Below, piece by piece: positions 54,482 to 55,520 of a stretch of 64,000 bases of DNA. The translations under genes and the position numbers were made by a program. The DNA is taken from positions 124,001 to 188,000 of the forward strand of contig NC_091277.1 in assembly GCF_042100115.1 (NCBI RefSeq). The letters are read 5' to 3'. The notes under the pieces are model-generated. The model was not told where the DNA came from and did no database searches. It worked only from the letters and a program-made list of their open reading frames with translations. This stretch comes from Alternaria dauci. Lineage: Eukaryota; Ascomycota; Dothideomycetes; Pleosporales; Pleosporaceae. Each line of letters starts with the position of its first letter. Position 1 is the first letter of the stretch.

Positions 54482-54685
54482 CTACATGATATCGCACTTT
54501 GCAGGTAATCCACACGGACCACCCTCCTTCTCCGCATCTTCTCCCGTCTTCTGCTGGGGTTGCGAGGATGTAGCAGGAGCAGAAGCAGGCGCAGCAGCAG
54601 CAGAAGTATTACCGTTTGTCGCCGCCACCCCATTCCCTACCACCTTCTTCTCACCAACATCACCAGCAGCCTTCCCATCATCTAG
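54482..54685 (-). other. In-frame readthrough extension ending in a CaaX box
   Basis: Directly after the TGA stop (54688-54686) the same frame continues CTA GAT GAT GGG and stays open for 67 codons to TAG at 54484-54482. The product would be a Gly/Ala/Thr-rich, then Glu/Lys-rich linker finishing PCGLPAKCDIM. The last four residues, C-D-I-M, fit a farnesylation CaaX box, and an upstream cysteine could be palmitoylated. TGA followed by CTA is the established high-readthrough context. I found no intron that would bypass the stop: skipping it from the GT at 54689 would need an AG at codon positions 1-2 downstream, and none exists in this extension. See findings. Confidence 0.75.
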
Positions 54686-55520
54686 TCACGGATGCGCCTT
54701 AGCAACCGCCTCATAAAACGCCTTACCCTGCGCCTGCGCAATACTCAACTCCAACTCCGTCGGCTGCCTCGACCCATCGGCACCCGAGAACGTACCCGCG
54801 CCCCACGGGCTCCCGCCATGAATCTCTTCCAGATTCGCCAACTGGGCAAACGCCGTCTTGTACCCCAAAGGCACATAGATGAACCCGTGGTGCACAAGCG
54901 TGCTCATACTAGTAATCGCGGTTGTCTCCTGGCCGCCGCCCATGGTACCCGTGGACACAAAGACGCCGGCGTATTTACCCCAGAAGGAACCTTGTTGCCA
55001 TTGCTTGCCCGTCTTGTCCCAGAAGGTCTTGAATTGCGCGGGGAAGTTGCCGTAGCGCGTGGGGATGCCGAAGAGGATGCCGTCGAATTCTTCGAGCACG
55101 GAGGGGTCTTCGAGGACGGGGACGGAGGATTCTTTGGGTGGGGCGTGCATCTTGGTGAGGACTTCTTGGGGGAGGGTCTCGGCGACTCTGTGGGTGGTGG
55201 GTTAGTGAGGGGGTTCGTTGGGTTGGGGAGAGGGGATGAGGGGGGTTGGTTATGATTGCGAGCTGGAGATTGGAGTGTTAGGTGCTGGATAGAGGGACTT
55301 ACTGGAACAGCTTGGCATCACCGCCAGCCTCTTGGATACCCTTTAGCTCAGCGTCGGCCTGTTGTAACCATGTTAGCAGAAGTACTCAATCGAGGATGGG
55401 AGAAGTAAGTGGGGAGCCGTTGGCAAACAGCATCTCCCACAAGACAACAAAGCATCAACCTACCAGCTTCTTGATGTGGCCGTACATGGAGTAGTACACA
55501 ATCGCAATCTTGGGAGCCAT
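54686..55520 (-). CDS. Flavodoxin-like NAD(P)H:quinone reductase (Alt a 7 / Pst2 / WrbA family)
   Basis: Three exons on the minus strand, 55520-55464, 55358-55303 and 55187-54686, give 204 residues up to the TGA. Introns are 105 and 115 nt. The start is MAPKIAIVYYSMYGHIKKLA, with the FMN phosphate loop (S11-M12-Y13-G14-H15). Further FMN-site motifs are FGIPTRYGNFPAQFKTFWD, FVSTGTMGGGQETT and SPWGAGTF. WrbA/Pst2 enzymes reduce quinones by two electrons and protect from oxidative stress; in yeast, relatives sit on the plasma membrane at eisosomes. Length equals the known Alternaria allergen Alt a 7. The stop is TGA-CTA and is followed by a long in-frame extension with a CaaX end, so a minor membrane-bound isoform is predicted. 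Confidence 0.95.

Follow-up and report, generated by a model that had tools for sequence, protein, structure and literature searches.

The window analysed here, a 64,000-nucleotide stretch of the Alternaria dauci genome (contig NC_091277.1, positions 124,001 to 188,000), carries a minus-strand gene at 55520-54482. The gene starts with an ATG at 55520, comprises three exons and has 204 codons before its first stop (Table 1). Intron 1 is 105 nt long and starts with GTAGGT, intron 2 is 115 nt long and starts with GTAAGT; both end with ACAG and contain a CTAAC that begins 18 nt before the end. Beyond the first stop the same frame continues, and the extension ends ...GGPCGLPAKCDIM followed by TAG, the final residues being PCGLPAKCDIM. 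Re-reading of the sequence reproduced exactly what the initial annotation had recorded: a 204-residue frame, TGA followed by CTA, 67 open codons, this C-terminus and a TAG.

Table 1. Features of the quinone reductase gene and its extension (positions in the window)
Feature	Position	Strand	Basis or remark
Exon 1, flavodoxin-like quinone reductase (MAPKIAIVYYSMYGHIKKL)	55464..55520	-	ORF/splice reading
Exon 2	55303..55358	-	ORF/splice reading
Exon 3 up to the first stop	54689..55187	-	Completes the 204-aa NAD(P)H:quinone oxidoreductase, WrbA/Pst2 type
First stop codon TGA	54686..54688	-	Also kept in the second copy
Codon CTA after TGA	54683-54685	-	Sequence
CTA G after the stop, giving the leaky context UGA CUA G	54682..54685	-	Identical in the second copy; context as in the passages used of PMC4207609 and PMC4359377
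In-frame extension, 67 codons (linker and conserved end)	54485..54685	-	Open frame
Conserved C-terminal motif GPCGLPAKCDIM	54485..54520	-	CGLP, 1-2 residues, C, 3 residues, end
CaaX sequence CDIM	54485-54496	-	Within the motif GPCGLPAKCDIM
Second stop codon TAG	54482..54484	-	Sequence
Rival 45-nt in-frame candidate intron, GTAAGG...GACTAG, spanning the TGA	54682..54726	-	Yields P0002 when removed

The 204-residue protein scored 196 bits against TIGR01755 (cut-off 132.5) and 208.6 bits against NF002999 (cut-off 141), and the nearest solved structure by sequence was 5mp4, Protoplast secreted protein 2 (E 9.1e-75). These scores and this match support the Pst2/Ycp4-type enzyme proposed earlier; judged by the curated cut-offs it exceeds, the product is an NAD(P)H:quinone oxidoreductase of the WrbA/Pst2/Ycp4 type. 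Orthologues are named minor allergen Alt a 7 (Alternaria) in the source records. Prokaryote relatives, 43-48% identical and all with prokaryote titles, accounted for at least 80 loci among 561 related stretches, and a search of viral contigs confirmed no relative.

The open frame after the TGA was compared with chance expectation. When the bases of the extension were shuffled 100,000 times, 3,609 of the shuffles remained open and only 26 of these also ended in C-x-[ILVM]-x, odds from which the TGA CTA itself is excluded. A background of ORFs was taken from 264 kb, consisting of the window and 200 kb of the same genome. Of the 83 ORFs with 200 or more codons, one ended in TGA CTA, as did 1 of 123 at 150 codons, and this single ORF belonged to another gene and stayed open for just one codon past its stop. 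The window gene is absent from both ORF sets, its last exon being 171 codons long and overlapped by a longer antisense frame. Extensions of at least 50 codons after the stop were found in 11 of 82 background ORFs, a rough figure in that many of these ORFs may end in introns. The codon score of the extension was 0.078 in frame, against -0.152 and -0.115 in the other two frames; the domain itself scored 0.165.

Separate initiation at an ATG was considered as a source of the tail. It was ruled out, as the only in-frame ATG within the extension is its last codon.

Tails of the same kind were sought in other fungi with a query alignment of nine tail-bearing proteins, and were counted among 176 proteins from the matches listed. 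The count was limited to proteins shorter than 300 aa; matches of 300 aa or more, including dinoflagellate-named and other matches of 388-454 aa, were dropped. Among the matches listed, at least 42 fungal proteins below 300 aa carried CGLP near the end, all of them NCBI entries annotated from genomes; this figure is not a frequency, since the query itself was built from tail-bearing proteins. By name, the tail-bearing genera were Alternaria, Pyrenophora, Phyllosticta, Teratosphaeria, Penicillium, Aspergillus, Paecilomyces, Colletotrichum, Fusarium, Neocosmospora, Podospora, Lachnellula, Rutstroemia and Halenospora, together with a Wetmoreana genome.

All 42 listed tails shared one C-terminal pattern, namely CGLP, 1-2 residues and a C-x-[IVM]-[LQMSV] end, whereas the linker between domain and motif varied freely in length and sequence. 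At the a2 position of the CaaX sequence, I occurred 28 times, V 11 times and M 3 times; at the X position the counts were L 18, Q 10, M 9, S 4 and V 1. Judged from the aligned sequences, this pattern fits a prenylation signal under selection. The CDIM of the window gene has its cysteine fourth from the end, an aliphatic a2 and an X residue that prenylation accepts. In the structure model of the A. alternata protein P0001 (249 residues, mean pLDDT 69.9), pLDDT fell below 50 at residues 210-239 and secondary structure was absent after residue 209. The C-terminus is thus predicted to be flexible and accessible, as a CaaX sequence requires, in this model of P0001 rather than of the window protein. 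A search of solved structures with the A. dauci protein P0002 added nothing on the tail.

A second cysteine, that of CGLP (54512-54514 in the window), lies 5 or 6 residues before the CaaX cysteine in 42/42 listed tails. From its position, it is a possible palmitoylation site.

A second copy of the gene occurs in the same genome at C8:2643152-2643717 (locus L006), on a contig of 2,749,198 bases and roughly 105 kb short of its end. Its exon 3 is identical to that of the window gene at 130 of 166 residues. Four-fold sites are alike at only 20 of 68 positions, which indicates saturation, and third positions at 62 of 166. At the place of the window stop the second copy reads CCG TGA CTA G, followed by 52 open codons and, in frame, a tail ending CGLPSKCDIM TAG. 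The 10-nt stretch CCGTGACTAG is identical in both copies (10/10), and 4 of 163 in-phase 10-nt windows within the domain are likewise fully identical; by this yardstick such identity would arise by chance in a few per cent of cases and is by itself not overwhelming. Over the last 11 codons, the two copies differ by four synonymous changes and one non-synonymous change.

UGA CUA G and the extension are therefore conserved in one diverged copy, the sole relative compared at the DNA level. Of the features that had been read from the window alone, the tail with its CaaX end proved real, conserved and not a matter of chance, given its recurrence in all 42 listed tail-bearing proteins, and the proposal of a leaky TGA CTA gains from the retention of TGA CTA G in so strongly diverged a copy.

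The second copy is closer to a protein of Paraphoma chrysanthemicola, P0057, with which it shares 160 of 166 residues and pairs at 100/99 support in a 75-row tree whose bootstrap was not fully settled. Given this identity, the comparison between the window gene and the second copy probably crosses families; given the pairing with P0057, two lineages would keep the arrangement of stop and tail. The pattern suggests either horizontal transfer or the retention, in both lineages, of an ancient second gene, and the contrast between 160/166 residues shared with Paraphoma and 130/166 with the window gene makes horizontal transfer probable. Under either origin, the two copies have been separated for a long time.

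The 5' part of the second copy contains a stop in exon 1 and an intron 2 with no in-frame acceptor findable by eye; this part has probably become a pseudogene only recently. In exon 3, the second copy also contains a likely 56-nt GC-AG intron (donor GCAAGT, acceptor AATAG) that has no counterpart in the window gene.

RNA folding was compared with shuffled sequences at both loci. After the window stop, no unusual structure was found (z 0.75 versus shuffles). In the second copy, the 120 nt that begin one base past the stop (L006:1168-1287) fold more stably than shuffles (z -2.51). With such different values, a shared stimulating RNA structure is not claimed.

Public gene models treat the stop in several ways. 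The A. dauci protein P0002 (257 aa) corresponds letter for letter to the window gene minus a 45-nt in-frame stretch, and P0010 of A. arborescens shares its junction over the stop. As judged from the proteins only, P0001 of A. alternata departs after KAH and P0021 of Pyrenophora after FYEA. The four annotations cross the stop by three distinct jumps, as though the gene finders had been seeking out a conserved tail. A donor at the stop itself (CC/GTGACT), suggested by P0001, was rejected for the window, in which the extension has no AGN codon that could serve as in-frame acceptor.

To characterize the messages of relatives, transcript-like clusters were defined as jgi, lgn or ena contigs shorter than 3.3 kb, which gave 55 clusters among the 120 matches listed. 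Of these, 46 matched the N-terminal motif and read across both intron positions, which would mark them as cDNA. None of the 55 carried the tail, and none is known to be from Alternaria; 33 end in KAHP or KAHQ, at the position of the TGA in the window. The absence of the tail from these clusters, together with the KAHP and KAHQ ends, suggests that the common transcript in relatives ends at the place of the window TGA and that the short form is the usual reading of the mRNA. This argument rests on relatives, because any Alternaria short forms may be hidden inside the P0010 cluster, which has 56 members. For A. dauci itself, RNA-seq is described in PMC9114375.

A different short end was also seen: 21 of the 120 listed matches end in KVNFA (25 end in VNFA), and many long forms diverge after the same Lys/Arg. 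As VN would be encoded by GTNAAY, the KVNFA form may reflect a retained intron in those fungi, which would then have a different way of arriving at the same two proteins.

Alternative splicing is the rival explanation that bears most directly on the stop. In it, the 45-nt candidate intron would be removed from part of the mRNA, joining ...IAQAQ to DDGKAAG...CDIM, and the CaaX form would arise without readthrough. An intron over the TGA had been named at the outset as an observation that would tell against readthrough, and the evidence on it is divided. Its product is the annotated A. dauci protein itself, with the same junction in A. arborescens; it has GT and AG ends, preserves the frame and contains a CTAAG that begins 21 nt before its end; and the KVNFA endings make an alternative intron near this position plausible in other fungi, as far as proteins can indicate. 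However, the second copy does not preserve these sites: there the donor GTAAGG of the window is replaced by GCAAGG and no CTRAN branch motif occurs at the corresponding site, yet the tail is kept. A GC donor is no strict exclusion, as the second copy has another likely GC-AG intron. The two genuine introns of the window gene contain CTAAC, whereas the candidate has only CTAAG. Its removal would also delete about half of the last helix (residues 182-209 in the P0001 model, mean pLDDT 69.9), the sequence of which is kept in 36 of the 42 listed long forms, and the models P0001 and P0021 bypass the stop at other points. Taken together, we regard splicing as the sole source of the tailed form as unlikely, though a serious contender.

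Readthrough of the main mRNA could also be combined with occasional splicing, given that a leaky context and a usable intron co-occur at this locus. Fungi reportedly reach peroxisomal enzyme isoforms by either route; Freitag et al. in 2012 are reported to have found cryptic targeting signals that fungi expose through alternative splicing and others that depend on readthrough. Of that study, the portion of PMC3840789 consulted mentions only the readthrough cases. The weaknesses of the intron in donor, branch motif and helix apply here too, and we consider the operation of both routes improbable. A third view holds that the tail is a relic: an ancestral sense tail before which a stop arose, now untranslated and decaying. 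The wide occurrence of the tail in related fungi and the poorly conserved linker (67 versus 52 codons) are compatible with this. Nevertheless, the frame, CGLP..CDIM and TGA CTA G are retained in two copies despite saturating synonymous divergence, and most changes in the final 11 codons are synonymous. The retention of such features would be surprising in a decaying tail, and this view is accordingly given little credence. Finally, an error of assembly or base calling could have turned a sense codon into the TGA, in which case the enzyme would always be tailed. A single-base mistake is conceivable, but the same TGA CTA G stands at the second, diverged locus, and 33 of the 55 transcript-like clusters among the matches listed end in KAHP or KAHQ at the same place, which leaves such an error highly implausible.

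Readthrough at this type of stop is known from other systems. According to the passages of PMC4207609 available here, UGA CU suffices for efficient readthrough in Ustilago maydis and is also active in HeLa cells, where a following A helps; in the excerpt of PMC4359377, the highest basal readthrough in human tests accompanied UGA CUA G. The readthrough reading of the window gene is held on the strength of these reports. Known UGA CU(A) readthrough isoforms named in the same passages of PMC4207609 are those of Ustilago maydis Tpi1, Rpe1 and Art1 and of mammalian LDHB and MDH1. In common with the window gene, they involve UGA followed by CU(A), a metabolic enzyme and an in-frame extension with a known or predicted C-terminal targeting signal; they are conserved across species, as the arrangement in the window may be. 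They are dual-located enzymes, as is proposed for the window gene, but have a peroxisomal PTS1 end, whereas the extension in the window has a CaaX end and 67 codons.

The tail itself can be compared with that of Candida albicans Ycp4, which is likewise a flavodoxin-like quinone reductase with an extension ending in CAAX. As described in the excerpt of PMC4556627, about 90 residues extend this protein at its C-terminus, read in the ordinary frame and with a CAAX end, and GFP-Ycp4 gives a plasma-membrane signal. Fusions of the tail-less Pst1, Pst2 and Pst3 of C. albicans are likewise at the plasma membrane in that excerpt, and the membrane location may therefore not depend on the tail. Tailed Ycp4 has its own gene in C. 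albicans beside Pst1-3, for which the same excerpt describes no such extension; at the window locus, in contrast, one gene seems to give both forms. For yeast, the part of PMC5364179 used here names Ycp4 among the substrates of Erf2, a palmitoyltransferase that has Ras as a substrate too, and a table of PMC3929663 places the palmitoylation site at Cys 243 on the basis of UniProt annotation and predictions, not experiment.

The proposed addition of a prenylation signal by readthrough has a predicted counterpart in Drosophila. The Syx17 readthrough extension carries a predicted farnesyltransferase signal and has a PhyloCSF value of 290.83 (PMC3840789, Table 2), and a prenylation signal among Drosophila extensions is noted as well in the accessible part of the review PMC4973966. 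Syx17 resembles the window gene in its readthrough extension with predicted farnesylation, which, with its positive PhyloCSF, may be conserved too; it differs in that the case is a prediction only and concerns a syntaxin instead of an enzyme. The novelty initially claimed for a readthrough that adds a prenylation motif therefore goes slightly too far, a farnesylation signal having already been predicted in Syx17. For the particular arrangement of readthrough and CaaX described here, no report was found in titles or abstract starts of the open-licence literature, which misses most subscription papers, and the same literature yielded no paper on Alt a 7 together with readthrough.

We favour, with a probability of about 0.57, the reading that one mRNA gives two proteins and that leaky readthrough of UGA CUA G yields a minor, CaaX-anchored form. 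Most ribosomes would stop at the TGA and release the 204-residue quinone reductase, the structure of the gene being plain from its exons and the amount of product being presumed. A minority would decode the UGA as an amino acid and continue for 67 codons, at a rate that is likewise presumed. The resulting product would gain a flexible linker and the end GPCGLPAKCDIM, the frame and conservation of which are observed directly. The CaaX cysteine of CDIM would then be farnesylated and the conserved upstream cysteine perhaps palmitoylated. By analogy with Ycp4 of yeasts, the lipid-fastened fraction of the enzyme may reduce membrane quinones at the plasma membrane.

From the sequences compared, the conserved leaky stop appears to be followed by an old CaaX tail, whose production is best, though not conclusively, explained by readthrough. 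A broader proposal, for and against which we see the balance as even, is that readthrough lets one Pleosporales gene do the work that Candida divides between separate genes, with a programmed leaky stop setting the ratio of free to anchored enzyme. In other fungal classes the same tail would then arise through splicing or in the ordinary frame.

Among conserved enzyme isoforms made by readthrough, the best-known ones are, to our knowledge, peroxisomal. If readthrough is confirmed at this locus, it would be a conserved case in which a prenylation signal is added to an enzyme in this way, and a lipid-anchored isoform would widen the known uses of readthrough. Annotations that omit the tail, or that bypass the stop by way of doubtful introns, would also be corrected. 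The same pair of enzyme forms would then be reached in two ways, through separate genes or through a leaky stop.
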